Positions 2,043 through 43,831 of a stretch of DNA of 43,874 nucleotides are shown here, one piece after another (the stretch's first letter is position 1; every line of letters begins with the position of its first letter). This stretch comes from Buttiauxella warmboldiae (GTDB taxonomy: Bacteria; Pseudomonadota; Gammaproteobacteria; Enterobacterales; Enterobacteriaceae): positions 1 through 43,874 of the forward strand of contig NZ_RPOH01000013.1 of assembly GCF_003818135.1 (NCBI RefSeq), given 5' to 3'. The notes beneath the pieces were generated by a model that did not search any database, was not told the DNA's origin, and saw only the letters and a list, made by a program, of their open reading frames with translations. The translations under genes and the position numbers were made by a program.

Positions 2043-4061
2043 TTAGAACGGGCAGTGCGAACGCTGGAGGCGAGGAAGTTTTGTCTCGTCGTTTGTGATA
2101 TCAATCACCAGCACATTTTCGCCCCGCTTAAGTGCAATTCGCATGCCTTCACTATCGGGCAAGACCTGCATATCGGTGATTGGCTGCTGGTTGTCAAAAT
2201 CCCACGCGCAAACAAACTCAGGGCTTTTGTCATCGCTGCGCAAAACCAGATAACTTAGATCCTCAATAGCCGGATTATCGGGAGCCTTTCCTTGCCAGAG
2301 TTCGGCCTTCCCGTGTAGCCACAATGCCTGCCCATTCAGTGCCGTGCCAAAATTGCGCGGCTGGCTGTTAGTCAGTTGAGCGCAATACGCATCCTGCATA
2401 ATTGCAAGCGGCCCGGTGTGGCTGAATGTCGCCAGTTCACCCTCGACATCAAGCGCTTTGCCATGAAGATGAAGTGTCCAGTCAACCTGTTGGCGATGCG
2501 GATTTTGCACGTTGCTGATGTCAATCAGGGTGTTGTCCAGCCACAGTAAACGGCGACGGAAACGCACATCGCGCCAGGCATCGCTATCCCACTGCACGCG
2601 CGTATGGCTATCCAGTTCCGGTGGCGTTTGCCGCCAGTCCACCTCTGCATCGAGCCAGCAAAACGCCTCGCTTTCATGATACTGGCGCACCACGGAAATC
2701 GCAGGCGGCTGGTTCGTTTGGTTAACGGAAATCGTATTATGCGTGGCGCTGTTTTTGTAATACGTGTAATGCATTGGCGCGCCGTAACCGGTCGTTCCCA
2801 GGTCGGGTAAAATTTCTTCCGCACCATTAAACAGCACAAGATTCAGGCGATCGTAGTGGTCATGTTCGCCACCGTAAGGGGCATGTTTCACCAGCAGAGC
2901 ACGCTGCTTTGCAGCGTTGCGCCAGAGGGTCAGGCCGCAATCAGGGGCATGTAAATGCCCGGTGGGGATCAACTCCGGAACCTGTTCTGGCAATGGACGA
3001 GTGTAGAGAAATGCATCCAGATTCAGGCGTGGATGATACTGATTCATCGCCTTTAACGCGGCGGCATATTGGCTATCCTGATAGTAATACCACGCAAATT
3101 CATAAAGATGGCCGTGATCGAGTTTTTCCTGTCCGTAGATACAATCATTGATGCGCGGGAAGGTGCCGTCTGGCATCAACAACATCAGTGGGAAACTGAG
3201 CATCTTTTTATAATAGGGTTCATTGAGCAGACTCCAGCGTGTACCCATCGCCAGCTTTTCAAACGCCAGAAAACCTTGCAGGGCGTAGAAATGGTAATGA
3301 ACCGAGCCTTCAAACCACAACCCTTCTTCAAACAGACCGTGTTCCAGTTGATAACGCAGCCCATAGGGCTGGTTTACCGCAAACTCCAGCAGCGAATTAT
3401 CATCCAGAACCAGACCCATTACACCCACCGCGCAGCCGATTTTGACCTCATGGTTATGTAATTGCGCAGTGCGGTGAGCTATCAAAAATTGCGCACCTTC
3501 TCGCAGCAGGCGCGTGATGATGTATTCACGTTGCTCTGCGGTCAGTGCTTCAGCGATGCAATCAAACCCGAGGGTGAAATCCAGCAGGCAGTTGGCTTCG
3601 CACAGCGTCTGGGCGTTCATTTTCCCCGGCCCGTTATAAGGAATATCACCGTGAATGGCATAGCCTGGGTAAAACTCCGCATAGCGCATCAGCAAATCAC
3701 GGACTTTCTCGAAATAAATGTGCTCACCGGTTAATTGCCATAACACACCAAGCTGGTGGCAGGCTTTGGCATTTAACCCGTTCAGCTCGCGCCACCATGC
3801 GCCGTCATAAGGCTCACCGCTAAACTGCCGCCCGTCTACCGGGCAGCAATGAGAGGCAGGGGAGTGTCTGTCCCACATCAGCCTGACCCCGTGGTCGGGG
3901 CAATAATAATAGAGATTCCACGTTGCCAGTGCCGTTTCAGGCACGTGCAACGGGTTGTTCAGAGCCACCGAATTATCGGCAATCAATTGTTCAATGATTG
4001 CTGGCTGCTGTTTAATCCGTTGCCGAAGAAGAATAAGTTGTTGCGTGGTGAACTGCTTCAT
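2043..4061 (-). CDS. Heparinase II/III-family polysaccharide lyase, cytoplasmic
   Basis: A 672-aa lyase of the heparinase II/III fold (the alpha/alpha toroid plus beta-sandwich group containing PL12, PL15, PL17 and PL21). Enzymes of this group cleave uronic-acid polymers or oligomers by beta-elimination, leaving a 4,5-unsaturated uronate. Visible signatures are HNHE at residues 202-205, VHYHFY near 254-259 with the probable catalytic Tyr256, and GGEHDHYDRLNL near 397-408. Later Asp420 and His441 sit where metal ligands occur in heparinase II. There is no signal peptide, so it should act on imported oligomers. I start at ATG 4061, preceded by AAGGA; the 28-residue upstream extension (to 4145) overlaps the previous gene and lacks family sequence. 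It lies 20 bases after the secreted lyase gene and is surely cotranscribed with it. Oligo-alginate lyase is one option, but the polymer is not readable by eye. Confidence 0.85.
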   Translation of the reverse strand: MKQFTTQQLILLRQRIKQQPAIIEQLIADNSVALNNPLHVPETALATWNLYYYCPDHGVRLMWDRHSPASHCCPVDGRQFSGEPYDGAWWRELNGLNAKACHQLGVLWQLTGEHIYFEKVRDLLMRYAEFYPGYAIHGDIPYNGPGKMNAQTLCEANCLLDFTLGFDCIAEALTAEQREYIITRLLREGAQFLIAHRTAQLHNHEVKIGCAVGVMGLVLDDNSLLEFAVNQPYGLRYQLEHGLFEEGLWFEGSVHYHFYALQGFLAFEKLAMGTRWSLLNEPYYKKMLSFPLMLLMPDGTFPRINDCIYGQEKLDHGHLYEFAWYYYQDSQYAAALKAMNQYHPRLNLDAFLYTRPLPEQVPELIPTGHLHAPDCGLTLWRNAAKQRALLVKHAPYGGEHDHYDRLNLVLFNGAEEILPDLGTTGYGAPMHYTYYKNSATHNTISVNQTNQPPAISVVRQYHESEAFCWLDAEVDWRQTPPELDSHTRVQWDSDAWRDVRFRRRLLWLDNTLIDISNVQNPHRQQVDWTLHLHGKALDVEGELATFSHTGPLAIMQDAYCAQLTNSQPRNFGTALNGQALWLHGKAELWQGKAPDNPAIEDLSYLVLRSDDKSPEFVCAWDFDNQQPITDMQVLPDSEGMRIALKRGENVLVIDITNDETKLPRLQRSHCPF

Positions 4062-4081
4062 CGCTCGATCCTTATTCTCAT

Positions 4082-5320
4082 TCAGTGTTGTTTTAACGGG
4101 GTAATAAGATGAGAAATATCGTCCGGATATTTTGCCATTAACCACTCCGCTTTTTCAGTAAACAGTTTGTCGTCAGGCCACGCGCGAGCGACGCTCACCA
4201 TATTCACCAACGCTTTTTTATCATCCATTTTATCAATATCCTTCCATGGCCAGGTTTTATTGCTATTCACGAAGTGTGCGACGTAGGTATAACCCTTGCG
4301 CAGGCTGTGATCGTCAAGATTGAAATTCCATACATCAACCCCGGTCACTTCCCCTAAACGCCCCAGCTTGTTGTAAGCCTCAAGGTGGAAATTGCTGTAA
4401 TGCCAGGGGCGAGTGCGCTCAATTTCCGCCATCTGGCGGCCTTCTTTATCAAAATGAGAAGGGATTCGGCGCAGTTGCGTGATTTGCAGCCGTTTTTTAG
4501 CCGCCTGCACATCGCCACTAAACAGGGCAAATGACGCGGCCTGTAAATCAAAATAAGTGCCGTGGTTGTTGTGCCAGTTGTCCTCTTCAAAACCGTTCTG
4601 GCTGGTGGTCATCCAGTGATAAAAATCGCCATACCATTGTTTTATCTGCCGGTAGTCATCGTCGCTCAGAACATTAGCCGGGCGTAACAATTCAACAGCA
4701 TCAATCACCTCCACCAGGGCGCGGCTATCAATCAGGCCGATTCCTCGTCCATCGTTAATGCCTGGAATAGCCTGCGCGTGTTGCAGATTTGGGTTCATGC
4801 GCGTTTCGGGCTTCACAAACCAGTTCAAAAGCTGAGCGCGGGCTTTTTCGGCATAGGCCGGTTTTTGCGTAAATTGCCACGCCAGCGCCAGCGTCCAGAC
4901 ATCATTGCTCATGTTGACCAGGCGTTTTTTGTCCGTGGCATCACTGTTGGCATCAGGGTTAGTCTGACCATCTTTGCGAATATACGGCAGCCCATCTTTG
5001 GTCGTTGGGTCCGGCCACCAGTATGGCGGGAAACTGTAGTAATCATGTTTATCACCGCTGGCCGCGGTAAGGGTTTTATCCATCACGGAATACAGCGGTT
5101 TGGTTAGCGCTTTATCCGCTCCGGCAATCAGTTTTTGATATGCGCCGATAAACTGCGGATTTTGTGCCTTTACCTGTTGTTGGCTGTAGCGTAAATCATC
5201 CAGCTTTATTTGCAGCGGATGCGCATCGGCGGCATACAACGGTGAAGTCATTAATACTCCTGCAACCGCCAGCGAAATGAATGACAGGCAGGGCAATAAA
5301 GTGGGTTTGCTCGAACACAT
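4082..5320 (-). CDS. Secreted alginate-lyase-fold polysaccharide lyase
   Basis: A 412-aa protein with a signal peptide (hydrophobic core residues 8-26, likely cut in SPLYAADA near 30-33), hence periplasmic. The mature part looks like the Alginate_lyase domain group (PF05426; PL5/PL38-type toroid). It has HDYYSFPPYWWPDP at 92-105, DGLPYIRKDG at 109-118, a TRMNP motif near 173 and WHNNHGT at 249-255. Asn252/His253 and Arg304/Tyr308 in RPWHYSNF resemble the catalytic Asn-His and Arg/Tyr of this fold. The substrate should be a uronic-acid polymer such as alginate or glucuronan. ATG 5320 has CGGAGAA just upstream and gives a compact signal peptide; ATG 5335 has no such site. It is first in the leftward operon with the heparinase-fold lyase, divergent from the ABC importer. 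The gene at 10067 is its signal-less paralogue. Confidence 0.85.
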   Translation of the reverse strand: MCSSKPTLLPCLSFISLAVAGVLMTSPLYAADAHPLQIKLDDLRYSQQQVKAQNPQFIGAYQKLIAGADKALTKPLYSVMDKTLTAASGDKHDYYSFPPYWWPDPTTKDGLPYIRKDGQTNPDANSDATDKKRLVNMSNDVWTLALAWQFTQKPAYAEKARAQLLNWFVKPETRMNPNLQHAQAIPGINDGRGIGLIDSRALVEVIDAVELLRPANVLSDDDYRQIKQWYGDFYHWMTTSQNGFEEDNWHNNHGTYFDLQAASFALFSGDVQAAKKRLQITQLRRIPSHFDKEGRQMAEIERTRPWHYSNFHLEAYNKLGRLGEVTGVDVWNFNLDDHSLRKGYTYVAHFVNSNKTWPWKDIDKMDDKKALVNMVSVARAWPDDKLFTEKAEWLMAKYPDDISHLITPLKQH

Positions 5321-5816
5321 ATTTTCTCCGTCCATCGGTAGAATGAATTCAGGTTGATAAAAGCCATCACCTTATTAATTGTCGGTGTTATTAGTATTCA
5401 TCGGTTATGAGAGTGGAAATAATATTATTGATGTTGCCTGCGCAGTGTAAGAGGCGGAATTAATTTTTATGTGATGTACTTCAAACTCTTGTTTATGATG
5501 CTAAATAACCCCTGAAAGCGAGTTGTAGATCACGAAAAAGAGCAGTTTTAAATCTAGTTTTATAATTTGCTAAATTTGTTTATATTTATATTGTCATGTT
5601 TTTATTGAACATTTTTTATTGTGTGTTTTGTGTCGCATTTTTAAATGTGATTGATGACACACTTCTGTATTGTGAAACGGCATTTCTGTTTTTGGTCGTT
5701 GTGTTTAACTCAACTATTCTATTTAATTATTGGGCAGCTTTTCTTTTATCAAAAATAATCTGCTTCACTCCATTTATTCAATTATCAAACCTCTTAAAAT
5801 AAGGATGTGAAAATAA
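5321..5816. promoter_or_regulatory. AT-rich divergent promoter region of the polyuronide locus
   Basis: About 480 bases separate the divergent lyase and importer operons, clearly richer in A and T than the flanking genes. I see no convincing gene; a 68-codon open frame at 5596-5802 has low-complexity hydrophobic content and no good ribosome site. The region probably holds both promoters and operators. TATAAT occurs at 5561-5566 without a good -35 partner. A candidate CRP site is listed separately. The specific regulator of this locus is not identified. Confidence 0.5.
5643..5664. promoter_or_regulatory. Candidate CRP-cAMP site upstream of the ABC importer operon
   Basis: AAATGTGA at 5643-5650, a 6-base spacer and ACACA at 5657-5661 match the CRP consensus (TGTGA-N6-TCACA) at nine of ten core positions, counting one mismatch in the second half. 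It lies about 150 bases before the binding-protein gene. Catabolite control of a sugar importer is expected; the site itself is a visual match only. Confidence 0.5.
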
Positions 5817-7112
5817 ATGTTCGCTACAAAATTAAAATCCGTATTTCTGATATCCGCACTGGGGTTAAGTGCTTCACAAGCATTTGCAGCCCAAACGCTT
5901 AATGTCTGGATTCGTGCCAGCAACGACTCAAAAAATATCTACAAGCAAGAAGCGGAAACCTTTGAAAAAAAGACCGGCATTAAAATCGAATATTTTAATG
6001 CCACAACTGATTTCGAGCAGCGTCTGGCGCGTGCGGCGGCGGGCAATGCGCTGCCGGACCTTATCTTCAATGATGCGGTCGCCATTGGACAATTCATCCA
6101 GCTTGGCATCGCCGAAGAAATCGACCCGAAAGCAATCGCCGGTGGCGACAATATTTACCCAACCGCCTGGGAAAGTACCCGCTACACCGACGGGAAATAC
6201 TATGGCGTGCCGACATCCGCTCAAACCTTCGCCCTGTTTGTACGCAAAGACTGGCGTGAAAAGCTGGGAATGCCCGCGCCAAAAACCTGGAGCGATATCG
6301 AGAAACTGGCAAAAGCCTTTACCACGCAAGACCCCGACGGCAATGGTAAAAACGACACCTACGGTTTTCTGTTGCCAGGCTCTACCACTCGCGGTTATGC
6401 CTGCTGGTTTATGAGTGCCTTCCTGTGGCAAGCCGGGGGTGATTTTATCCGTGAAGGGGCGATAAAAGGCACATTCAAAGCCTCGCTCGATGAACCCGCT
6501 GCGACGGAAGCCTTGCAGTTTATGCGCGGTATGTTGTGCGAAAAAGTGGTCCAGCCGGGCGCTATCAATGCCACGACGGCCGATATCATCCCTTCATTCC
6601 GCTCCAGCCAAACCGGCATGTTCTTCACCGGGCCGTATCATATCGCGTTATTTGATAAAGACCCCGGCAAAGACAAGTTTGAAGTGGTGATGCTCGAAGG
6701 CCCGAAAAACAGCGCCACGCTGGCTGAAGGCACCACGGTCTTTATGATGAAAAGCAGCAAGAACAAAGAAGCAGCCCGCAAGTTCATCGAATTTATGATT
6801 TCCCAGGAAGGGCAAGAAATCGGCATGGGTAAAGGCAGCAAACATATGCCAGTGGTGCGTTTGCCCGTGAACAAACAAGTAGACACGCAAGCGGTGTATG
6901 ACGACGCGCGCTGGGAGAATTTCGCCAGACTCTACGCCGAACAAGGCCGCTATGTACCACAAGTGCCGAACTGGACGCCAATCCGCCAGATAACCGCCGA
7001 TGGTTTTAACCGTGTTCTGGCTGACTGCAATAGCGATATCAATGCGGAGCTGAAAGCCACCAACGAGAAGGTCAACGCTGAACTTGCTAAACAGCAGGTG
7101 CTGGCGAAGTAG
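5817..7112 (+). CDS. ABC importer extracellular sugar-binding protein (SBP_bac_1 type)
   Basis: A 431-aa periplasmic binding protein with a clear signal peptide (MFATKLK, then a hydrophobic stretch, cleavage after SQAFA near residue 24). The mature start TLNVWIRA and later ALPDLIFND, YGVPTSAQTFALFVRKD, and the GMFFTGPYHIA segment are typical of the maltose/glycerol-3-phosphate/oligosaccharide binding-protein superfamily. It should capture oligosaccharides for the two permeases downstream. ATG 5817 has AAGGA about 12 bases upstream, and the open frame starts there. It is the first gene of the rightward operon, followed by paired REP elements that can stabilise its part of the mRNA. The neighbouring lyases suggest unsaturated oligouronides as the ligand; that is inference from context. 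Confidence 0.9.
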   Translation: MFATKLKSVFLISALGLSASQAFAAQTLNVWIRASNDSKNIYKQEAETFEKKTGIKIEYFNATTDFEQRLARAAAGNALPDLIFNDAVAIGQFIQLGIAEEIDPKAIAGGDNIYPTAWESTRYTDGKYYGVPTSAQTFALFVRKDWREKLGMPAPKTWSDIEKLAKAFTTQDPDGNGKNDTYGFLLPGSTTRGYACWFMSAFLWQAGGDFIREGAIKGTFKASLDEPAATEALQFMRGMLCEKVVQPGAINATTADIIPSFRSSQTGMFFTGPYHIALFDKDPGKDKFEVVMLEGPKNSATLAEGTTVFMMKSSKNKEAARKFIEFMISQEGQEIGMGKGSKHMPVVRLPVNKQVDTQAVYDDARWENFARLYAEQGRYVPQVPNWTPIRQITADGFNRVLADCNSDINAELKATNEKVNAELAKQQVLAK

Positions 7113-7126
7113 GTTTGGTGCCAAAC

Positions 7127-7197
7127 GGTGGATGATGCTGCGTTTATCTACCCTACAAAACCAGACGTAGGGCGGATAAACGCAGCGCCATCCGCCA
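7127..7197. repeat. Paired REP elements (BIME-like) after the binding-protein gene
   Basis: A left arm at 7127-7156 and an inverted right arm at 7167-7197 share GCTGCGTTTAT and CCCTAC with few mismatches, and each arm has a GGTGGAT or ATCCGCC end. This is the enterobacterial REP/BIME design, here able to fold into one long hairpin. Its position between binding-protein and permease genes fits the known role of protecting upstream mRNA from 3' decay. Confidence 0.8.
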
Positions 7198-7225
7198 CTT
7201 AACTTCAAAAAAGAGCAAAAAAACG

Positions 7226-8104
7226 ATGTTAACTTCTCGCCAGAAACGAAACCTGGTGCCGTGGATATTTTTGGCTCCGGCACTGGTCATTTTTACCTGG
7301 TTTAAATTCATCCCCATGCTGCAAGGGTTGGTGATGAGTTTTTACAAGGTGAACTTCAATCAACCAGATGAATGGGTTGGGTTTGCCAACTTCGCCCGCG
7401 CTTTTGCCGATATCGAACTGCATTCAGCCGTGTTCAACACCTTTCTTTATGTCGTGGTGACGATGGTGGTTGGGGCGGTACTGGCATTTTTCCTGGCTAT
7501 GTTGCTTGAAGGTCCCGCCCGCCATTTGCGCTTCATCCGTACCGCGATTTTCCTGCCTGCGGTAACGAGTGCGGCTATCGTCGCTGAAATGTGGCGCATC
7601 TTGTTTAACCCAACGCCGAACGGGGTGGTGAACCATATTCTGAGTTGGTTTGGCGTGGCCGACCAGGGGTTCCTCGCCAGCTCCGATCAGGCGCTGTGGG
7701 TGATCATGCTGCTGCATATCTGGAAAGCGGTGCCATACAACATGGTGATATTTATCGCCGGCCTGGCGGGTATCAGCCGTGATTTATATGACGCGTCAAA
7801 TGTTGACGGCGCGAACTGGTGGAACCGCCTGCGCTACGTCACGCTACCTGGCATGATCCCAGCTATTTCCGTGGTGTTGATGCTCTCGTTTATCCGTGGT
7901 TTCCGCGTGTTTGCCGAAGTGTACGCCACCACCGGCGGCGGGCCGTCCGGTGCGACAGAGATGATCATGACCCACATCTATAAACTTGGTTTTGAGCAAT
8001 TTGACTACGGCTATGCTTCGGCGGTGTCGTTCCTGTTATTCGCCTTCACCGTGGTGCTGACGATTTGTCATCTCACGCTGAAAAAGCGCATTGCCCGCTA
8101 TTAA
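7226..8104 (+). CDS. ABC sugar transporter permease, MalF/UgpA type
   Basis: A 292-aa inner-membrane permease with about six hydrophobic spans. It begins with the family pattern WIFLAPALVIF near residue 13, followed by FIPMLQGLVMSF. The EAA loop that contacts the ATPase is visible as YDASNVDGANWWNRLRYVTLPG near residues 190-211. It should pair with the next permease and with the ATPase at 8965 to import the ligand of the upstream binding protein. The ribosome site is weak (AAAGAGC well upstream of ATG 7226), consistent with lower expression than the binding protein. Stop and next start are 10 bases apart. Confidence 0.9.
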   Translation: MLTSRQKRNLVPWIFLAPALVIFTWFKFIPMLQGLVMSFYKVNFNQPDEWVGFANFARAFADIELHSAVFNTFLYVVVTMVVGAVLAFFLAMLLEGPARHLRFIRTAIFLPAVTSAAIVAEMWRILFNPTPNGVVNHILSWFGVADQGFLASSDQALWVIMLLHIWKAVPYNMVIFIAGLAGISRDLYDASNVDGANWWNRLRYVTLPGMIPAISVVLMLSFIRGFRVFAEVYATTGGGPSGATEMIMTHIYKLGFEQFDYGYASAVSFLLFAFTVVLTICHLTLKKRIARY

Positions 8105-8114
8105 GGAGCTGCCC

Positions 8115-8954
8115 ATGTTAGGTAAACGTTGGGATACCGTAGGCCGCTGGATGATTTATGGCCTGCTGTTAATGGTATTTGTCGGGCCGTTCTGGGGCAT
8201 TGTTGCCACCGCATTCAGTGGTGCACCCGTGAAGCCTGGTGAACTGTTGGCCTGGCCGAATGAGTTTTCAATGGAGAATTTTATCTTTGCCTGGCAGGAC
8301 ATTGGTGTCTGGCAATACCTGTTGAACTCGATGGTAGTGGTGTTCTTCGGCACCATTTTGCAGGTCTCTGTCAGTGCGCTGGCGGCCTACGCCTTAGCGC
8401 GCAAAAAGTTCGTCGGCGTCTCGTTGGTCAGTTTGATCATCCTTTCCACCATGATGCTACCGGAAGAGGTGATCGCCATTCCGCTGTACATGATTATCAA
8501 CTGGCAACTGCCGCTGATTGACTCGTCACTCTATAACACCTATCTGGGCATGATCATGCCGGTGGTGGGCTGGGCGTTTTCCATCTTCGTGCTTAGCGAA
8601 TTTATGGCGGCGATCCCCAAAGAACTCGAAGAAGCTGCGCGTATCGATGGTGCCAATGAATGGCAGATTTTCTTCCACGTTATCTTGCCTCTGGTTAAAC
8701 CGGCGCTCGGGACGGTTGTGACCTTCGGTTTCATCATGATTTGGGACCAGTACCTGCTGCCGCTGATTGTGGTGAACCACGACAGCCTGAACACCATTCC
8801 GGTGATCCTTGGCCGCTTGCGTACCGATGAAAGCATCACACCAAACATCTTTATTGCCATCACCTTACTGGCGATGTTGCCGAGCATCATTGTGTATCTC
8901 GGTCTGCAAAAACATTTCAATCGCGGGATTATGTCCGGCGCGGTCAAAGGATAA
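8115..8954 (+). CDS. ABC sugar transporter permease, MalG/UgpE type
   Basis: A 279-aa inner-membrane permease, the second half of the transport channel. Typical segments are the N-terminal span near residues 11-33, NSMVVVFFGTILQVSVSALAAYALAR near 71-96 and the EAA loop EEAARIDGANEWQIFFHVILP near 173-193. ATG 8115 follows AAGGAG by about six bases; an open frame to 8091 overlaps the previous gene and has no such site. It lies in tight operon spacing between the first permease and the ATPase. Confidence 0.9.
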   Translation: MLGKRWDTVGRWMIYGLLLMVFVGPFWGIVATAFSGAPVKPGELLAWPNEFSMENFIFAWQDIGVWQYLLNSMVVVFFGTILQVSVSALAAYALARKKFVGVSLVSLIILSTMMLPEEVIAIPLYMIINWQLPLIDSSLYNTYLGMIMPVVGWAFSIFVLSEFMAAIPKELEEAARIDGANEWQIFFHVILPLVKPALGTVVTFGFIMIWDQYLLPLIVVNHDSLNTIPVILGRLRTDESITPNIFIAITLLAMLPSIIVYLGLQKHFNRGIMSGAVKG

Positions 8955-8964
8955 GGAGCGACAC

Positions 8965-10053
8965 ATGGGGTCTGTAGTGCTTAAAAATGTCTGTAAATCA
9001 TATGGCGACGCACACGTTATTAAAGATGTCTCGTTGACCATTCCAGACGGTGAGTTCTGTGTGTTGGTTGGCCCGAGTGGCTGCGGCAAATCTACCTTGC
9101 TGCGCATGATTGCCGGGCTTGAAGAGATTACCGGCGGCGAGGTGGCGATTAATGAAAAAGACGTCACTGACGTTGAGCCGAAGCTGCGCGATATTGCGAT
9201 GGTGTTCCAGAGTTACGCGTTATATCCGCAAATGACCGTGCGTGAAAATATGGGCTTTGCTCTCAAAATGGCCAAACTGCCAAAAGCGGAAATCAGCCAG
9301 AAAGTGGAAGCGGCAGCCGACCTTCTCGGCCTGGGTGTACTGCTCGACCGCCTGCCAAAAGATTTATCCGGCGGCCAGCGCCAGCGTGTGGCGATGGGGC
9401 GGGCCATTGTGCGTAATCCGCAGGTGTTTTTATTTGATGAACCGCTCTCAAACCTCGACGCTAAACTGCGCACTCAGGTGCGGGGCGAAATTCGTGAGCT
9501 GCATCGCCGCCTGAAAACGACCTCGGTCTACGTGACTCATGACCAAATAGAAGCCATGACCATGGGGCAGATGATTGTGGTGTTACGCGAGGGGCGTATC
9601 GAACAGGTCGGTAGCCCGCTGGAATTATACGACCGCCCGGCAAATCTATTTGTCGCCGGTTTCATCGGCTCGCCTGAAATCAACCAGTTAAAAGGTGAAG
9701 TGGTACTACAAAACGGAGAGGTGATGTTACGTCTTGCCGATGGCTCTTTGTTAAGCTTGCCGCCGGGCGTGCAGGTGAAACCGCAGCAAAAAGTAGTGTA
9801 CGCAATACGCCCTGAACAGGTCAATGTGGTGGATGAAAGCGAGCAAAGCGGGGCGCTAAAGGCGACCATCACCGCCATTGAAAACACCGGCTCCGATATG
9901 CAGTTGTTCTGCAACACTGGCGGGGGATCCTTTACCTCGGTATTTAAGCAGCGATTAAATGTACGGGAAGGTGAAACGGTATGGCTGCAGCCCAGAGTGA
10001 CCGGTATCCACATTTTTGATGCCGACAGTGGGCAGCGCGTAGCGTGTCATTAA
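8965..10053 (+). CDS. ABC sugar transporter ATPase, MalK/UgpC type
   Basis: A 362-aa ATP-binding subunit of the CUT1 importer family. It has Walker A GPSGCGKST near residues 36-44, a Q-loop in VFQSYALYP, the signature LSGGQRQRV, Walker B VFLFDEP, the D-loop SNLDAKLR and the switch His in YVTHDQ. The C-terminal third (from about 235) matches the MalK-type regulatory domain (GFIGSPEIN, YAIRPEQV). I chose ATG 8965, with AAGGAGCG upstream; a longer open frame to 8809 lies inside the permease gene. It energises the two upstream permeases, and one ATPase of this kind can sometimes serve several importers. Confidence 0.92.
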   Translation: MGSVVLKNVCKSYGDAHVIKDVSLTIPDGEFCVLVGPSGCGKSTLLRMIAGLEEITGGEVAINEKDVTDVEPKLRDIAMVFQSYALYPQMTVRENMGFALKMAKLPKAEISQKVEAAADLLGLGVLLDRLPKDLSGGQRQRVAMGRAIVRNPQVFLFDEPLSNLDAKLRTQVRGEIRELHRRLKTTSVYVTHDQIEAMTMGQMIVVLREGRIEQVGSPLELYDRPANLFVAGFIGSPEINQLKGEVVLQNGEVMLRLADGSLLSLPPGVQVKPQQKVVYAIRPEQVNVVDESEQSGALKATITAIENTGSDMQLFCNTGGGSFTSVFKQRLNVREGETVWLQPRVTGIHIFDADSGQRVACH

Positions 10054-10066
10054 GAAGGAGCGATTG

Positions 10067-11203
10067 ATGAAGTTATACACCCTGGATGTCACGTGCCTGG
10101 AGAATGCCCGCCGTGGCTTACAGCAACCTTTTTCGCCGCTGCAACTGGCGCTGGGGAGACTGGTTAGCGAGGCGGATAAACTCCACGGGCAACCCCCTGA
10201 AAGCGTAGTGCATAAAAAGCTGCGCCCGGTGAGTGGCGACCCGCACGACTACTACAGCCTGGGGACTTACTGGTGGCCCAATCCACGCAGGCCGAATGGC
10301 CTGCCGTACATCCGCCGCGACGGGCACACCAACCCGCAATGCCAGAACAATGACACTGACACCACGCGCATTATTCGCATGTGTGAACGTAGCCTGACGC
10401 TTGGGTTGGCATGGTATTTTACCGGGCATCGCAAATACGCGCTTGCGGCGGCGGAGCAAATCAAGTGCTGGTTCCTTGATGAACAGACGCGCATGAACCC
10501 GCATTTGAATTACGGGCAGGCGATCCCAGGGATAGTCTCCGGGCGCGGCACCGGGCTTATCGACACGCGCTTATTGTGGATGGTTATCGACACCATCGGG
10601 TTGATAAGCGATGCAGGCGTACTGGATACCGACGACATTATCGGCTTGCATCAGTGGTTCCGGGACTTTAACCACTGGATGTTCTATAGCGATGTTGGCC
10701 ATTCGGAGTACGTCTGGCACAACAACCACGGCACCTGGTATGATGCGCAACGCGCGGTGAATGCGCTGTTCTACGGTGATAAAGGGCTGGTGGCGCGGAT
10801 TATCCAGCAGGGAATCACGCAACGCATGGCGGCGCAAATTGACCAGGAGGGCAAACAGACCATGGAACTGGAGCGCCCGGTGCCGTTCCACTATTCCTTG
10901 TTCAATCTCGAAGCCCATTTGCTGCTAAATCGCTATGCCGAACATGTCGAATTCGACCGCTGGAATGCGGAGCAAGATGGCCGAAGCGTGAAGCTCGGCA
11001 TTGATTATTTAATGCCGTTTATTGCCGATCCTGATTTGTGGCCGTACCGCGATCTGGACGGTATCGTCTGGGATAGCGCTTTGCGCATATTACTGCAATC
11101 TATGCGTGGATACCCGAAAGAAGCTGCGCGATATAAAACCGTGCTGGCGAATTTCCCGGAAGATACGCTGAATTTACGCGAACAACTGATGTGGTGTGCC
11201 TGA
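10067..11203 (+). CDS. Cytoplasmic alginate-lyase-fold lyase, paralogue of the secreted enzyme
   Basis: A 378-aa enzyme without a signal peptide, related over its length to the secreted lyase at 4082-5320. Shared blocks are DPHDYYSLGTYWWPNP at 58-73, NGLPYIRRDGHTNP at 77-90, TRMNP near 141, QAIPGI followed by GRGTGLIDTR near 159-168, and WHNNHGT at 217-223. Arg270 and Tyr276 in RPVPFHYSLFN match the Arg/Tyr pair of the paralogue. It is last in the importer operon, so it should cut imported oligouronides by beta-elimination in the cytoplasm. ATG 10067 follows AAGGAG; a TTG directly before it is less likely. Alginate versus glucuronan specificity cannot be decided by eye. One polymer seems to be handled by the same enzyme family on both sides of the inner membrane. 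Confidence 0.85.
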   Translation: MKLYTLDVTCLENARRGLQQPFSPLQLALGRLVSEADKLHGQPPESVVHKKLRPVSGDPHDYYSLGTYWWPNPRRPNGLPYIRRDGHTNPQCQNNDTDTTRIIRMCERSLTLGLAWYFTGHRKYALAAAEQIKCWFLDEQTRMNPHLNYGQAIPGIVSGRGTGLIDTRLLWMVIDTIGLISDAGVLDTDDIIGLHQWFRDFNHWMFYSDVGHSEYVWHNNHGTWYDAQRAVNALFYGDKGLVARIIQQGITQRMAAQIDQEGKQTMELERPVPFHYSLFNLEAHLLLNRYAEHVEFDRWNAEQDGRSVKLGIDYLMPFIADPDLWPYRDLDGIVWDSALRILLQSMRGYPKEAARYKTVLANFPEDTLNLREQLMWCA

Positions 11204-11251: not shown

Positions 11252-11761
11252 TTAATGATGCTGATGGTTGACGAAGGTTGTCAGAAGCTTATCCGTCTGG
11301 CTCATACATAATCCTGCTTTATGAGCGTGGCGTACTTCGTCGAGAATAGTATTAAGCAGCAATCCCTCCTCCTGTTGCTCCTGGTCCATGCTTTGTAGAA
11401 ACGCCAGCGTCTGTTCGTCCTTTAACGCCGCCGCTTCAGCGCTCAATGTGCTTAAGATGGCGCAGCGCTGTTGATAATCCTCAACCATTTTTTCAAACAG
11501 CGCTTCCAGTGAGCTGCAGTCGCATCTGCCGGGTAGCGCTTCAATGCTGCCCACAAAGGGGTTGGCACCCGCCTGCTTCATAAAATTAAATATCCTCATC
11601 ATCTGCGTCACGTTACATTGAGCCTGTTTTCTTAAGAAAGTTGCAGCACCCGTCAGGCTCTGTTCTGAACACCAGTTGCTCAACCGCAAATAGAGATTGG
11701 AGGAATAAAAATCACGGTTAATCTGTAAATTTAGTTTTTGAACCATACCTGAAGTTTCCAT
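11252..11761 (-). CDS. ftnB: Ferritin-like protein FtnB
   Basis: A 169-aa ferritin-family protein matching E. coli FtnB in length and in blocks such as [22 protein letters not shown] and [11 protein letters not shown]. In FtnA the ferroxidase residues Glu50 and His53 lie in AQEEMTH; here the equivalent stretch reads AQCNVTQ, so both are missing, as they are in E. coli FtnB. It may therefore act in iron handling or iron-sulfur repair rather than bulk iron oxidation. ATG 11761 follows AAGGA at good spacing; an upstream ATG at 11788 would add nine unconserved residues. The C-terminus is His-rich (NHQHH). It is a backbone gene, next to araF in E. coli but here separated from both neighbours by carbohydrate genes. 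Confidence 0.93.
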
Positions 11762-11833
11762 AATCATTTCCTTATTGAGCCGGAACATCGGGGTTAGCTT
11801 TGCGTATTACGATAAGCGAGCTGCCAGAGGAAA

Positions 11834-13156: not shown

Positions 13157-13423
13157 ATGGTGCAACCTGAAAATATCATCCTGAATAACCCATTTAAAAG
13201 CAGGGTCGATCTGCGTGAGTTGGTGAGTGAATTATTGAATACCGTTTCGCCATTATTTAAAAAAGATGCCAGCCGTATCGACCTTTTAATCAGTGCCATT
13301 TTGGCAGGGGATGGCATCGCGTTTGAGGCGCAATCTTGCCCGCAAGCCATTATCAGCGAGGCTGCTGTACGCCTGGTGATGGGTCATCAAAGCAAACTCC
13401 TGAGTCTGGAGAGTCACCAATGA
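13157..13423 (+). CDS. Uncharacterised 88-aa protein, translationally coupled to the symporter
   Basis: I do not recognise this protein. It is 88 aa with no signal peptide, membrane span or cysteine-rich motif beyond one Cys near residue 61. Residues about 16-55 look amphipathic and helical (RVDLRELVSELLNTVSPLF, then SRIDLLISAILAGDG). The ribosome site GGGAGG before ATG 13157 is good. Its stop TGA overlaps the ATG of the symporter gene (ATGA at 13420-13423), so translation of the two is coupled. As first gene of an operon with a LacY-type symporter and a GH88 hydrolase, it may be a cytoplasmic accessory or regulatory factor. No function is claimed. Confidence 0.75.
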   Translation: MVQPENIILNNPFKSRVDLRELVSELLNTVSPLFKKDASRIDLLISAILAGDGIAFEAQSCPQAIISEAAVRLVMGHQSKLLSLESHQ

Positions 13424-14700
13424 ACATATCGACACCTACGCGTACCGCGCAGATAAAAATGAGCAGTTTTATCTTCCTTTATTTTTTCACCTGGTCTTCA
13501 AGCTTCGGGCTATATGCCCTGTGGCTGAGTCAAAAAGTCGGTTTAGACAGCATCACAATCGGCAGCGTTTTCGCCATCAATGGCGTCTTTGCGGTAGTGA
13601 TGAAGCCGGTCTATGGCTACATCATGGACAAAATCGGTATGAGCAAATGGCTGCTCTATTTTGTCTGTGTTATTTCGGCGTTGATGGCACCATTTTTCGT
13701 GACCGTCTATCAGCCCCTGCTGCTGACACACACCACCATCGGTATTGTGGCGGGGGCGTTTTACCTGAGTCTCGGCTGGTACGCAGGCGTTGCGGCATCT
13801 GAATCTTATGCTGACCGCTTTAGCCGCTTGTACGGCCTCGAGTTTGGGCGCATTCGCATGTGGGGATCGCTCGGCTGGGCCATGGCAGCCTCGGTATCCG
13901 GTCTGTTATTTAACTACACGCCGCTGGCAAATTTCCTTGTCAGCAGCACCACCTCGGTATTGATGCTGTTGGTACTGATTAGCCTGAAGATTGGTGATGA
14001 ACAGCTGCGCAATAACAATGTGATTTCAGCGAACAAAATCGTCTTTACGGATGTGCTCATGCTGCTGAAAAACCGTAAATTCTGGATGTTCAGCCTGTAT
14101 GTGGCGGGAGTGGCCTGGATGATGTTTGTAGCAGAGCAACAGTTCCCGCGCTATTTCGTCTCGTTCTTCGCCACCAAAGAGCAGGGGAATGCGTGGTACG
14201 GCTACCTCAGCACGGTGCAGTCCGGCATGGAATTCGTGATGATGATGTTTATTCCGGTGCTGGTGAATCATTACGGTGCCAAAAAAGGACTGTTGTTATG
14301 CGGCTGCGTAGTAGGGTTACGCCTGATTGCTTCGGGCCTGACAACCGATCCGTTGGTGATATCCATTATCAAACCGTTCTACGGAGTAGAAATCGCATTA
14401 CTGCTGATTTCGGTCTTTAAATACATTGCCGAACATTTCCACAAGAAAGTTAACGCCACTATGTATTTGCTGGGTTATCAGGCGATGATTTATGTCGGCT
14501 CAGTTGTTGTGGCACCGCCCGCGGGCTACCTGTATGACAAAATCGGCTTTGAACACACCTATTTAATGATGGGCTGCTGCGCGCTGATATTCACCCTGAT
14601 TTCCGCTTTTACCCTTTCGCATTGCCAGGCAAAACGCGATGAACTCCACTCGAACACTCCCAATTTAGACGCCGTACCGGTTGAACCGGTAAAACATTAA
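13420..14700 (+). CDS. LacY-type oligosaccharide:H+ symporter (MFS, OHS family)
   Basis: A 426-aa inner-membrane carrier with about 12 hydrophobic spans, the length of LacY (417) and relatives. The N-terminal FLYFFTWSSSFGLYALWLS, and the LEFGRIRMWGSLGWA stretch (LacY has FEFGRARMFG with the proton/sugar-site Arg144), place it in the oligosaccharide:H+ symporter branch. ATG 13420 overlaps the preceding stop; a longer frame to 13336 runs inside the upstream gene and is rejected. The partner is a GH88 enzyme 14 bases downstream, so the cargo is probably an unsaturated uronyl disaccharide or oligosaccharide rather than lactose. It would be a second uptake route next to the ABC importer. Confidence 0.88.
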   Translation: MNISTPTRTAQIKMSSFIFLYFFTWSSSFGLYALWLSQKVGLDSITIGSVFAINGVFAVVMKPVYGYIMDKIGMSKWLLYFVCVISALMAPFFVTVYQPLLLTHTTIGIVAGAFYLSLGWYAGVAASESYADRFSRLYGLEFGRIRMWGSLGWAMAASVSGLLFNYTPLANFLVSSTTSVLMLLVLISLKIGDEQLRNNNVISANKIVFTDVLMLLKNRKFWMFSLYVAGVAWMMFVAEQQFPRYFVSFFATKEQGNAWYGYLSTVQSGMEFVMMMFIPVLVNHYGAKKGLLLCGCVVGLRLIASGLTTDPLVISIIKPFYGVEIALLLISVFKYIAEHFHKKVNATMYLLGYQAMIYVGSVVVAPPAGYLYDKIGFEHTYLMMGCCALIFTLISAFTLSHCQAKRDELHSNTPNLDAVPVEPVKH

Positions 14701-14714
14701 TTAAAGGAAACGTT

Positions 14715-15920
14715 ATGACCCGTACTTTAGTCACTGAAAATGTGGTGACCGAGCCACTGCGCCCTATTGAATTACACCAGATAGACCGTCTGGCGCTGAG
14801 ACATAAGCTGGATAAAGCTTTGCACAGCGTCACTAACAAGCTGGATAAGATTATTGTCATCGTTGGGGACAAATTCCCGAACGAAGCCTGTGAAGGCGGC
14901 AAGTGGAAACCTGCTGAGAATAACGAGTGGACCACCAGTTTTTGGCCAGGGCAATTGTGGCTGGCGTGGGAGATGACAGGCGATGACAAGTATCGTCAGG
15001 CAGCAGAGCGCTATTTGCCCTCTTTTACGCAGCGTTTAGACCAGCGTATCGAAACCGCGACTCACGATTTGGGCTTCCTCTATACGCTTTCGTGCGTCAA
15101 TGCCTGGCGCTTAACCGGCAATGAAATGGCCCGTCAGACCGCATTACAGGCCGCAGATATTTTGATGGAACGCTACAACCCGGTGGCGAAAATTATTCAG
15201 GCGTGGGGGGATTTAAATGATCCAGAGCAGCAGGGGAGGATGATTATTGACTGTAATATGAACCTTCCGCTGCTTTATTGGGCAAGCCAGCAAACCGGTG
15301 ACGCACGTTATGCGCAGGCTGCTACGGCGCACGCACAGCAGGCAGCAAAGTATATCGTTCGCCCGGATGCCTCGACTTTCCATACTTACTATATGGATGT
15401 GGTAACCGGAGAACCGCGATTTGGCAATACGCATCAGGGGTACAGTGATACTTCCTGCTGGTCGCGCGGACAGGCGTGGGGGATTTATGGTTTTCTGCTT
15501 ACCTGGCGGTATACCGACGATAGAAGTATGGTGGAGCTCGCCCGAAGCCTCGCGCATTACTTTATCAACCGTCTGCCGGAAGATGATGTTTGCCACTGGG
15601 ATCTGGCGCTGCTGGGAACCGATGCGGTACGCGATAGCTCAGCGGCGGCAATTACCGCCTGCGGCCTGCTGGAGCTGGTGAAAGCGCTGCCAGCGCTGGA
15701 TGAGCACCGTGCCCATTATGAAGAAATGGCGCTGCGTATTATCGAGTCGCTCACCGATAACTATCTGGCGCGGGACGATGAAGCCTGTGAGGGGCTGCTG
15801 AAGCACTCGGTGTACCATATGGCAAGCGGTAAAGGTGTCGATGAGTGCTGTAGTTGGGGAGACTATTTCTATCTTGAAGCGCTGGTGCGTGTGCGCCAGA
15901 CGTGGAGCCTCTACTGGTAA
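14715..15920 (+). CDS. GH88 unsaturated glucuronyl hydrolase
   Basis: A 401-aa alpha/alpha-barrel hydrolase that removes the 4,5-unsaturated uronate left by polysaccharide lyases through hydration of the vinyl ether. Candidate catalytic residues are Asp118 in ATHDLGF and Asp179 in MIIDCNMNLP. Their spacing of 61 equals that of Asp88 and Asp149 in Bacillus sp. GL1 UGL. NEWTTSFWPGQLWLAWEMTG near residues 70-89 and CWSRGQAWGIYGF near 248-260 are family hallmarks. There is no signal peptide, so it is cytoplasmic and fed by the symporter and perhaps the ABC importer. AAAGGA precedes ATG 14715. It is last in the operon, before a strong hairpin. The product, 4-deoxy-5-hexosulose uronate, would need KduI/KduD, not encoded here. 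Confidence 0.92.
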   Translation: MTRTLVTENVVTEPLRPIELHQIDRLALRHKLDKALHSVTNKLDKIIVIVGDKFPNEACEGGKWKPAENNEWTTSFWPGQLWLAWEMTGDDKYRQAAERYLPSFTQRLDQRIETATHDLGFLYTLSCVNAWRLTGNEMARQTALQAADILMERYNPVAKIIQAWGDLNDPEQQGRMIIDCNMNLPLLYWASQQTGDARYAQAATAHAQQAAKYIVRPDASTFHTYYMDVVTGEPRFGNTHQGYSDTSCWSRGQAWGIYGFLLTWRYTDDRSMVELARSLAHYFINRLPEDDVCHWDLALLGTDAVRDSSAAAITACGLLELVKALPALDEHRAHYEEMALRIIESLTDNYLARDDEACEGLLKHSVYHMASGKGVDECCSWGDYFYLEALVRVRQTWSLYW

Positions 15921-42480: not shown

Positions 42481-42691
42481 TGGTGAGGCCGGTATCCTGA
42501 CTCTTTGCAATTTTGCCAGTATTATCAAAGCCGTGGCAAAAACGAAAAGGTATCTCTTCCCCCGTCCTTCTACCTTAGCAGGATAAGATTTTCGCAGACC
42601 TGCGGGCATAAGCCGGAACGTGCACGATCCAGTGACAAAAGCAACGGAGTCTGGCGGCAATGAATTCGAAGACATCACAGAGGTTAAGTTA
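42481..42691. other. Structured leader region before the GH105 gene; antisense side resembles a cobalamin riboswitch
   Basis: No gene is seen here. TTTGCCA and TGGCAAA (about 42511-42540) form a hairpin on either strand. On the minus strand, three elements occur in the order and rough spacing of a cobalamin aptamer: GTTCCGG...GCCCGCA near 42600-42620, GGGGGAAG near 42556-42563, and GTCAGGATACCGGCC near 42486-42501. A convincing 5' closing stem is missing, and no minus-strand gene follows, so this may be a decayed or coincidental element. Confidence 0.25.
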
Positions 42692-43831
42692 ATGATTATT
42701 TATCCTGTCAAACACAGCCCTTTACTGCGCCAGCCGCAGCATTTTATCGCCCGGGATGAGCTGAAAACCCTGATCCACAAGGTGACGGATAATCTGATTA
42801 ATATTAAGGATGAAACGGGCCAGTTCCTGCTGCGGCTGGATGACGGGCGAGTCATTGACACCAAAGGTTGGGCCGGCTGGGAGTGGACGCACGGCGTCGG
42901 TTTGTACGGTATGTATCAATATTATCGCCAGACCGGCGATGAGAAGATGCGTGAGATTATCGATAGCTGGTTTGCGGATCGCTTTGCCGAAGGGGCAACC
43001 ACCAAAAACGTCAATACCATGGCGCCGTTCCTGACGCTGGCCTACCGCTTTGAGGAAACGCGCGACCCATCGTACTTACCCTGGCTTGAAAGCTGGGCGG
43101 AGTGGGCGATGTATGAGATGCCGCGCACCGAACACGGCGGCATGCAGCACATTACGCTGGCAGAAGAGAACCATCAGCAGATGTGGGACGACACGCTGAT
43201 GATGACGGTGTTGCCGCTGGCGAAAATCGGCAAACTATTGAATCGCCCGGAATATGTAGAGGAAGCAACTTATCAGTTCCTGCTGCATGTACAGAATCTG
43301 ATGGACCGGGAAACCGGGCTGTGGTTCCACGGCTGGAATTATGAAGGCAATCATAACTTTGCGCAGGCGCGTTGGGCGCGTGGTAACAGCTGGCTGACGA
43401 TGGTTATTCCTGATTTCCTCGAGCTGGTGGATTTACCCGAAAATAATGCGGTGCGCCGTTACCTGGTGCAGGTGCTGGAAAGCCAGGTCGCTGCGCTGGC
43501 GAAATGCCAGGATGACAGCGGTTTGTGGCACACTTTGCTGGATGATCCCCATTCTTATCTTGAAGCGTCGGCCACCGCCGGTTTTGCTTACGGCATTCTG
43601 AAAGGCATCCGTAAACGCTACATCGGCAAGCAATACGCTGAAGTGGCTGAGAAGGCGATGAAGGGGGTTGTGAAAAATATCTCCCCTGAGGGCGAGCTGT
43701 TGCAGGTGTCATTCGGTACGGGGATGGGCAGTAATCTGGAGTTTTATCGCCAGATCCCGCTAACGTCGATGCCGTACGGTCAGGCGATGGCCATTCTGTG
43801 CCTGGGTGAGTATTTACGTATTTATCTCTAA
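42692..43831 (+). CDS. GH105 unsaturated rhamnogalacturonyl/uronyl hydrolase
   Basis: A 379-aa alpha/alpha-barrel enzyme, the usual length of the YteR/YesR/RhiN family, which removes a 4,5-unsaturated uronate from lyase products. Family marks are GWAGWEWTHGVGLYGMY near residues 59-75, MWDDTLMMTVLPLA near 164-177 with the likely catalytic Asp166 or 167, WFHGWNYEG near 211-219, ARWARGNSW near 226-234, and DPHSYLEASATAGFAYGI near the end. There is no signal peptide. ATG 42692 has AGAGG upstream at about nine bases; a longer frame to 42620 adds 24 unconserved residues. It is a single gene after flhE, distant from the other uronide genes, but complements GH88. Rhamnogalacturonan is the classical substrate source; other polyuronides are possible. 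Confidence 0.9.
   Translation: MIIYPVKHSPLLRQPQHFIARDELKTLIHKVTDNLINIKDETGQFLLRLDDGRVIDTKGWAGWEWTHGVGLYGMYQYYRQTGDEKMREIIDSWFADRFAEGATTKNVNTMAPFLTLAYRFEETRDPSYLPWLESWAEWAMYEMPRTEHGGMQHITLAEENHQQMWDDTLMMTVLPLAKIGKLLNRPEYVEEATYQFLLHVQNLMDRETGLWFHGWNYEGNHNFAQARWARGNSWLTMVIPDFLELVDLPENNAVRRYLVQVLESQVAALAKCQDDSGLWHTLLDDPHSYLEASATAGFAYGILKGIRKRYIGKQYAEVAEKAMKGVVKNISPEGELLQVSFGTGMGSNLEFYRQIPLTSMPYGQAMAILCLGEYLRIYL

Follow-up and report, generated by a model that had tools for sequence, protein, structure and literature searches.

In Yersinia enterocolitica, oligogalacturonides are degraded under KdgR by periplasmic PelP (YePL2A), the TogMNAB transporter, cytoplasmic PelW (YePL2B), and Ogl, according to the accessible part of the report (PMC5559549). 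Here we describe a locus of similar plan in Buttiauxella warmboldiae, in which two PL38 lyases, one predicted to be secreted and one cytoplasmic, stand on either side of the genes for an ATP-binding cassette (ABC) importer. The locus lies in a stretch of 43,874 nucleotides (NCBI RefSeq assembly GCF_003818135.1, contig NZ_RPOH01000013.1; positions 1-43874 of contig C13 of genome G000 in our numbering, a genome of 4.30 Mb in 135 contigs), and "the window" refers throughout to this whole stretch. As reconstructed here, it matches the Yersinia pectin system in that lyases of a single family are placed in both compartments flanking the inner membrane, with an ABC importer linking the two, and in having another cytoplasmic oligo-lyase, a KdgM porin, putative KdgR control, and a route through 2-keto-3-deoxygluconate (KDG). 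Unlike in Yersinia, the lyases belong to PL38 rather than PL2, the third lyase is PL17-like rather than an Ogl (PL22), and both PL38 genes occupy one locus. On contig C40 the B. warmboldiae genome has a further ABC set, judged Tog-like from gene order, whose neighbors are two Ogl genes, KduD, and KdgM. Orthology of the window importer to these proteins was not found, the matches reaching 25% identity over 106 residues (binding protein) and 30% over 256 residues (permease). The window system resembles the pectin system in plan but is not a member of it, and its lyases are unrelated to PL2.

Parts of the same plan are found in other bacteria. Plasmid loci of Vibrio cyclitrophicus and V. pelagius place a secreted-type PL38 (416 and 433 bits) beside UxaC, KduD, KdgR, and KdgM, and V. 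cyclitrophicus also has the same heparinase-fold lyase type as the window (706 bits); unlike the window, they have sodium symporters in place of the ABC importer, and no second PL38 was found in the stretches examined. The lyases of Sphingomonas A1 belong to other families. Its alginate system (AlgQ1/Q2-AlgM1M2SS with cytoplasmic lyases, as given in the available text; PMC8286568) resembles the window in combining ABC import of a polyuronide with cytoplasmic lyases, and no alginate-binding protein was among the best 60 of 502 PDB matches of the window binding protein. In Bacteroides ovatus CP926, the alginate polysaccharide utilization locus encodes BoPL6, BoPL17, and BoPL38 (PMC11381880), again uniting PL38 with a PL17-related lyase; it differs in SusCD uptake, in PL6, and in its alginate substrate, and the accessible portion of that report mentions no cytoplasmic PL38. 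For the alginate degrader Verruconatronum alginivorum, one PL38 with and one without a signal peptide are tabulated (PMC13274419). These differ from the window pair in lying at separate loci, judging by gene number, and the part of the source available to us describes no ABC importer.

The PL38 pair and its importer

The locus consists of two divergent arms flanked by a Dcu-type carrier gene (554-1897) and a ferritin-like gene (11252-11788). The minus-strand arm holds the secreted PL38 lyase and then a heparinase-fold lyase, and the plus-strand arm runs from binding protein through two permeases and ATPase to the cytoplasmic PL38 lyase:

2043..4061, minus strand: heparinase-fold (PL17-like) oligo-uronide lyase, predicted cytoplasmic, 672 aa (Hepar_II_III_C 69.2 bits; PDB relatives PL17 only; start taken from orthologs)
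4082..5320, minus strand: PL38 lyase with signal peptide, predicted secreted, 412 aa (PF05426 264.8 bits; 3nfv 4.9e-69; catalytic residues kept)
5321..5816, no strand: divergent promoter region, 30% G+C (alignment of 12 loci; base composition)
5674..5686, minus strand: KdgR-like box core GAAATGCCGTTTC (matches RAAAYRYYRTTTY exactly)
5817..7112, plus strand: ABC importer substrate-binding protein (SBP_bac_1 131.9 bits)
7226..8104, plus strand: ABC importer permease 1 (BPD_transp_1 46.1 bits)
8091..8954, plus strand: ABC importer permease 2 (BPD_transp_1 73.5 bits)
8965..10053, plus strand: ABC importer ATPase of UgpC/MalK type, likely true start 8965 (ABC_tran 122.3 bits; UgpC-type 479.5 bits)
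10067..11203, plus strand: PL38 lyase without signal peptide, predicted cytoplasmic, 378 aa (PF05426 247.9 bits; 3nfv 2.5e-72; model TM-score 0.83-0.85 to PL38 structures; catalytic residues kept)

A preliminary description of this DNA, drawn from its letters and open reading frames, had given the coordinates of both PL38 genes exactly (4082-5320 on the minus strand, 10067-11203 on the plus strand) and had reported a complete oligosaccharide-type importer between them, which was borne out: the binding protein, both permeases, and the ATPase are all present. The two lyases are 42% identical over 346 residues and match each other at 292-294 bits; given these values and their PF05426 scores (cut-off 22.2), their relation is not due to chance. 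The WWPxP, GLPYIR, TRMNP, and WHNNHGT blocks that had been noticed were recovered in both, and the signal peptide is indeed confined to the first, which begins MCSSKPTLL... and is Sec-type by eye, whereas the second begins MKLYTLD... and lacks a hydrophobic segment. Crude hydropathy over the first 40 residues ranged from 0.27 to 1.18 in all 21 aligned cytoplasmic sequences and from 1.93 to 2.62 in 20 of 21 secreted ones; the outlier is presumably L058, whose frame was called too long (490 aa). Apart from a weak match in the third lyase, the window pair accounts for all PL38 genes detected by PF05426 in the genome.

The significant PDB matches of both lyases were 3nfv (BACOVA_01668), BoPL38 (8bdq; 4.4e-47 for the secreted and 7.2e-57 for the cytoplasmic lyase), and BoPL38 mutants. 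The cytoplasmic lyase, the only one of the pair modeled, has a BoPL38-type fold in its model (TM-score 0.83-0.85 against the 3nfv and BoPL38 structures), with a predicted local distance difference test (pLDDT) score of 77.6 and loops 64-96, 150-163, and 212-219 below 50. Two families, PL38 and PL5, had been put forward for the pair; sequence matches assigned both lyases to PL38, and PL5 was rejected, with A1-III appearing only at a Foldseek E-value of 1.7e-3 after 17 PL38-type matches. In BoPL38, the accessible text attributes proton abstraction to Y298 and H243 (PMC13169297), and PDB titles name mutants of Y91, D108, Q173, N242, H297, and Y298. Both window lyases have Y91, D108, Q173, N242, H243, R292, H297, and Y298 (BoPL38 numbering), and these eight mapped positions are kept in 21 of 21 secreted and 21 of 21 cytoplasmic sequences. 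The preliminary description had allowed for missing catalytic residues or for lyases of unrelated families; the residues are kept and both enzymes are PL38. Together, these data support the prediction that one family, PL38, acts on both sides of the inner membrane.

Judged from sequence, a two-compartment polyuronide pathway is very likely. Passage of the polymer or its oligomers across the outer membrane would be by a KdgM-type porin or would follow extracellular cleavage; the secreted PL38 lyase would cleave a 1,4-linked polymer of uronic acid to unsaturated oligomers, within the periplasm or beyond it, and the binding protein and ABC importer would carry these into the cytoplasm. There, the cytoplasmic PL38 and PL17-like lyases would yield unsaturated monomers and a reducing-end uronate, which would enter the KduI/KduD and UxaC routes to KDG. 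Two type II secretion system secretins score above cut-off in this genome, so the secreted lyase could also be exported. The sequence itself gives the families, the predicted compartments, the mapped catalytic residues, the co-inheritance, the KdgR-like box, and the KduI, KduD, KdgR, UxaC, and KdgM genes; we infer the direction of flow, the endo or exo roles, the regulation, and the polymer. Taken as a whole, the locus is probably the inner part of a polyuronide utilization pathway, putatively KdgR-controlled, with glucuronan as the most likely substrate. The preliminary description had also read the locus as one pathway, and that reading stands as to PL38 on both sides, the importer, co-inheritance, and the catalytic residues, with the correction that the third lyase belongs to the cytoplasmic arm.

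Distribution and origin of the locus

In a sample of 295 genomes of the window's family, 58 had a PL38 match at 1e-20. The full-length cytoplasmic type was found in 17 genomes at 74-100% identity, and all seven genes occur together in 16 of these (14 at a strict cut of 55% identity, which the third lyase of G140 and G106 narrowly misses). G201 has the importer and the cytoplasmic lyase with no minus-strand arm in 14,675 bases, and carries a major facilitator superfamily (MFS)-type pair, described below, on another contig. Among named loci, 11 of 13 are complete (Buttiauxella, Serratia oryzae, Serratia sp. Ag1 and H1w, and Enterobacillus tribolii); the incomplete ones are L015, with pieces of the third and cytoplasmic lyases, and L016, with a cytoplasmic relic only. 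Among named matches, those nearest to the cytoplasmic lyase come from Buttiauxella (95-97%), and no DNA match to 4082-7115 was found in E. coli genomes. This distribution supports the view that the seven genes are one co-inherited locus. Decayed copies were seen at L015:8347-9450 (Buttiauxella massiliensis, the lyase pieces mentioned above) and L067:9534-10313 (G114, the end of the cytoplasmic lyase). The complete locus of G287 has a second secreted PL38 gene past the heparinase-fold gene (L057:14884-16137), 60% identical to that of the window.

PL38 also occurs in two other linked architectures. Ten MFS-type loci (L068, L071-L079) encode a secreted PL38 and the heparinase-fold type seen in the window alongside an MFS carrier and, in most cases, a KdgM porin, cytoplasmic PL38 being absent from the locus; KdgM was recognized by Pfam in L072, L074, L075, and L077, and in L077 a sodium symporter replaces the MFS carrier. 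Seven loci that we grouped as alginate-type encode a secreted PL38 of a different branch. One of these, L095, has a sodium symporter, an oligoalginate-lyase-like protein (482 bits), a GntR regulator, and a short-chain dehydrogenase/reductase (SDR) close to A1-R and A1-R' (4tkl 1.4e-117, 3afm 3.7e-109), which reduce 4-deoxy-L-erythro-5-hexoseulose uronate (DEH). An A1-R-type SDR is present in five of the seven, L094 and L104 being those without it.

A PL38 tree was built from 107 frames, of which 89 were left once those shorter than 300 aa were removed along with eight loci whose genomes were the same as, or near to, others in the set (L051, L053, L056, L059, L060, L065, L069, L070); two PDB fragments brought it to 91 rows. 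The ABC type, the MFS type, two Vibrio genes, and two solitary copies fell on one side (support 96), and the alginate type, the remaining solitary copies, and BoPL38 (on a very long branch, its placement unsure) on the other. Secreted copies clustered with PL38 of the MFS type and of Vibrio (support 99); cytoplasmic copies fell outside them, in a clade (support 100) that includes relics from Siccibacter and is co-inherited with the secreted copies. The cytoplasmic lyase is about as far from its secreted partner (42% identity) as from Vibrio PL38 (42-43%). The phylogeny proposed earlier for the two paralogs gave a divided answer, and no recent duplication of one lyase into the other could be demonstrated: the tree splits the pair, while an approximately unbiased test on 56 rows does not reject secreted and cytoplasmic copies as a single clade (p 0.51).

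In Siccibacter (2/2 genomes, S. turicensis being represented by L016), a lone cytoplasmic PL38 gene sits at the corresponding position, flanked by dcu and the ferritin gene (L016:9001-10155, L066:9440-10591). Y91, Q173, N242, H243, R292, H297, and Y298 are replaced in both copies, and both frames are open. The pairwise ratio of nonsynonymous to synonymous divergence (dN/dS) is 0.27 at dS 0.95; four pairs of intact cytoplasmic copies gave 0.02-0.08 at dS 1.2-2.4, where such estimates saturate. The Siccibacter gene is apparently under purifying selection and probably encodes a retained pseudoenzyme with a non-catalytic role, making it a case of a lyase apparently kept after loss of its catalytic residues.

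Regulation, third lyase, and polymer

The divergent promoter region contains a block, TGAAA-N4-ATTTCT, that is invariant in all 12 aligned loci and fits RAAAYRYYRTTTY, taken here as the core of the KdgR site. The printed Dickeya KdgR consensus, as it appears in the accessible text, is AAATGAAACAnTGTTTCATTT, and the core is compatible with it (PMC5559549). Exact cores were found in 18 of 23 ABC-type divergent regions (344-694 bases; 0.69 expected in first-order random sequence). The other types were scanned over about 7.6-11.7 kb: cores occurred in 9 of 10 MFS-type loci (0.73 expected) and in none of 7 alginate-type (0.37 expected) or 19 solitary loci (1.31 expected). The ogl/kduD/kdgM region of the same genome has five exact cores, with one more upstream of kduI. 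The genome encodes a KdgR homolog (63% identical to the Vibrio gene), so that regulator gene and KdgR-like promoter site (5674-5686) are both present, and KdgR would control the divergent promoter. A TGTGA-type element seen by eye near the box may be a CRP site. Of two other patterns searched, TGAAAC-N4-GTTTCA with 2 mismatches gave one site outside the locus and none in the promoter, and the ExuR-like ATTGGTATACCAAT with 3 mismatches gave none.

The third lyase, which begins MKQFT 20 bases past the secreted lyase gene, has no signal peptide and is therefore placed in the cytoplasmic arm, giving two cytoplasmic lyases of three; the preliminary description had correctly recognized a heparinase-fold lyase there but had not assigned it to this compartment. 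Among the families suggested for it (PL12, PL15, PL17, PL21), PL17 is nearest, at a distance. Its sequence relatives in the PDB are PL17 alginate lyases only (9irq 5.1e-23, 4nei 5.8e-23), and PL17 structures still rank first in Foldseek (TM-score about 0.5) with a poor model (pLDDT 58.6). Against the NCBIfam oligoalginate lyase equivalog it scores 86.9 of 1400 bits, below the cut-off, which is a strict one because the alginate-type relative, at 482 bits, fails it too. An HNH block, a tyrosine, and an HxH motif are present in 42 of 42 third-lyase sequences. At one further position, all 7 alginate-type sequences (six loci) have Arg, and Tyr is found in 23/23 ABC-type sequences, 10/10 MFS-type sequences, and the single Vibrio one. 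The heparinase-fold tree likewise sets the alginate type apart from the ABC/MFS set by very long branches (support 100).

Elimination yields the erythro 4-deoxy-5-keto acid from alginate and the threo form from polymers of glucuronate or galacturonate, and KduI and KduD serve the threo form; the substrates of UxaC are D-glucuronate or D-galacturonate. The B. warmboldiae genome encodes KduI (450 bits, cut-off 250), KduD (449 bits, cut-off 339), a UxaC homolog (44% identical to the Vibrio gene), and two KdgM proteins. The KduI gene is that on contig C94, a stronger PF04962 match on C42 being IolB. The locus had been described as either incomplete or reliant on genes elsewhere; the second option holds, with KdgM, KduI, KduD, KdgR, and UxaC genes present at other sites in the genome. 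Some relatives carry such genes close by. At 2-4 kb past the cytoplasmic lyase gene, Enterobacillus tribolii has KduD and, on the opposite strand, KduI, and the gene directly downstream of that lyase in G009 and G158 encodes a KdgM homolog (53-54%). No A1-R-type DEH reductase was found in the window's genome at 1e-45 (the best SDR had 34% identity and 101 bits; other reductase families were not searched). It is likewise absent from 14 of 17 ABC-type genomes and present in none of 9 MFS-type genomes, with G201, which has both types, counted among the 17. Since this reductase is missing here and marks five of seven alginate-type loci, glucuronan would be likelier than alginate. A homopolymer would also fit a conserved unit comprising three lyases and no hydrolase. 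Glucuronan is a proven substrate of PL38 enzymes, CUL-I and TpPL38A, in the accessible parts of two reports (PMC13027841, PMC9029943). On balance, the sequence evidence inclines us toward a D-glucuronate homopolymer, glucuronan, as the main polymer.

Several observations weigh against this account. The loci in which cores were counted are related and are not independent trials, and 5 of the 23 divergent regions have no exact core; near-matches across the window number 11 against 6.8 expected, a value reached by 7 of 100 shuffles, and are not clearly enriched. KduI is uninformative alone and was dropped as a discriminator, being carried by 33 of 35 genomes. The nearest solved relatives of the third lyase are alginate lyases, and an A1-R-type reductase occurs in 3 of the 17 ABC-type genomes (G165, G070, G022), each time on a contig other than that of the locus. 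PL38 substrates also include alginate and glycosaminoglycans (GAGs) in the source text available. KduD-type proteins are listed as DehR homologs in an alginate degrader, in the accessible portion of that report (PMC13274419).

Some of these points would suit alginate as the polymer, with the lyases producing oligoalginate and then DEH, and an unrecognized reductase leading to KDG. BoPL38 and Aly38A are described as alginate lyases in the excerpts available, and the PL17 affinity of the third lyase and the reductases elsewhere in three genomes with the locus agree with this. However, the A1-R-type reductase is missing from this genome, from most genomes with the locus, and from those of MFS type; the linkages in relatives are to KduI/KduD, KdgM, and UxaC; and both lyase types are separated from the alginate-type loci by long branches, with the Arg/Tyr difference following the same division. 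We consider alginate unlikely. A polymer in which uronate takes turns with a different sugar, as in hyaluronan, chondroitin, heparosan, or a bacterial capsule, and whose disaccharides are split by an adjacent GH88-like enzyme, appears quite improbable. Amuc_0771 and RiPL38 act on GAGs according to the accessible text, Asticcacaulis PL38 loci include GH88 and DUF2264, and in Buttiauxella one ferritin and one AraC gene separate the locus from a DUF2264-MFS-GH88 set; yet the stretches examined outside Buttiauxella show no linkage of GH88 to the seven-gene unit, and a dedicated oligo-lyase of PL17 kind would be of little use on an alternating polymer.

If glucuronan is the substrate, a broader proposal is possible, which we hold tentatively: an Enterobacteriaceae glucuronan regulon, undescribed in the literature searched, existing in two forms (ABC importer with two PL38; MFS/KdgM with one), each with the same new family or subfamily of heparinase-fold exo-glucuronan lyases beside PL17, and parallel to a distinct alginate PL38 system. 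No description of this locus appeared in the titles and abstract openings of the literature searched, and the Serratia oryzae genome paper mentions alginate in a reference only. If the proposal is true, enterobacteria would possess a dedicated, KdgR-controlled route for a glucuronic-acid homopolymer, which the papers found do not link to them. With the pair, secreted and cytoplasmic representatives of a single lyase family can be compared directly, and the division between alginate and glucuronan within PL38 could be traced in sequence; the third lyase offers a candidate, open to testing, for a new exo-glucuronan lyase.

Solitary PL38 genes and the surroundings of the locus

Many genomes of the family carry a solitary secreted PL38 gene to which no importer is linked (19 such loci were scanned), making non-catabolic roles of PL38 plausible. 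For the window locus, a non-nutritional function, for instance the trimming or recycling of a uronate-rich exopolysaccharide made by the cell itself, is very improbable: the importer, the two cytoplasmic lyases, and the KdgR-like boxes suggest carbon use, and no polysaccharide synthase was seen among the window proteins examined, a subset of its open reading frames. Nine solitary loci (L085, L086, L089, L091, L093, L097, L099, L100, L105; eight genomes and G022) share neighbors of about 310, 780, 220, and 245 codons; neither an importer nor a second lyase was recognized there, and another role for these nine genes is possible. The solitary secreted copies at L082:9919-11109 and L088:9557-10747 are 49-50% identical to the secreted lyase of the window, have nrdE/proV-like neighbors by eye, and carry Thr in place of Asn in the MNP motif.

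Two wider open reading frames were rejected as gene models within the locus: 8809-10053 for the ATPase, on overlap and ortholog starts, and 2043-4145 for the third lyase, which overlaps the secreted lyase and whose orthologs begin MKQFT. The GH88, LacY-like MFS, and DUF2264 genes were ruled out as members of the unit, their linkage being confined to Buttiauxella in the loci examined. In Buttiauxella relatives, the DUF2264-MFS-GH88 set adjoins the locus behind an AraC regulator; in the window, 13160-15920 contains a DUF2264 gene lacking its middle, with matches left to residues 1-54 and 565-609. At the window's end, beside flagellar genes, 42620-43831 encodes a GH88/GH105-like protein (NCBIfam BglB 484.9 bits, cut-off 420).

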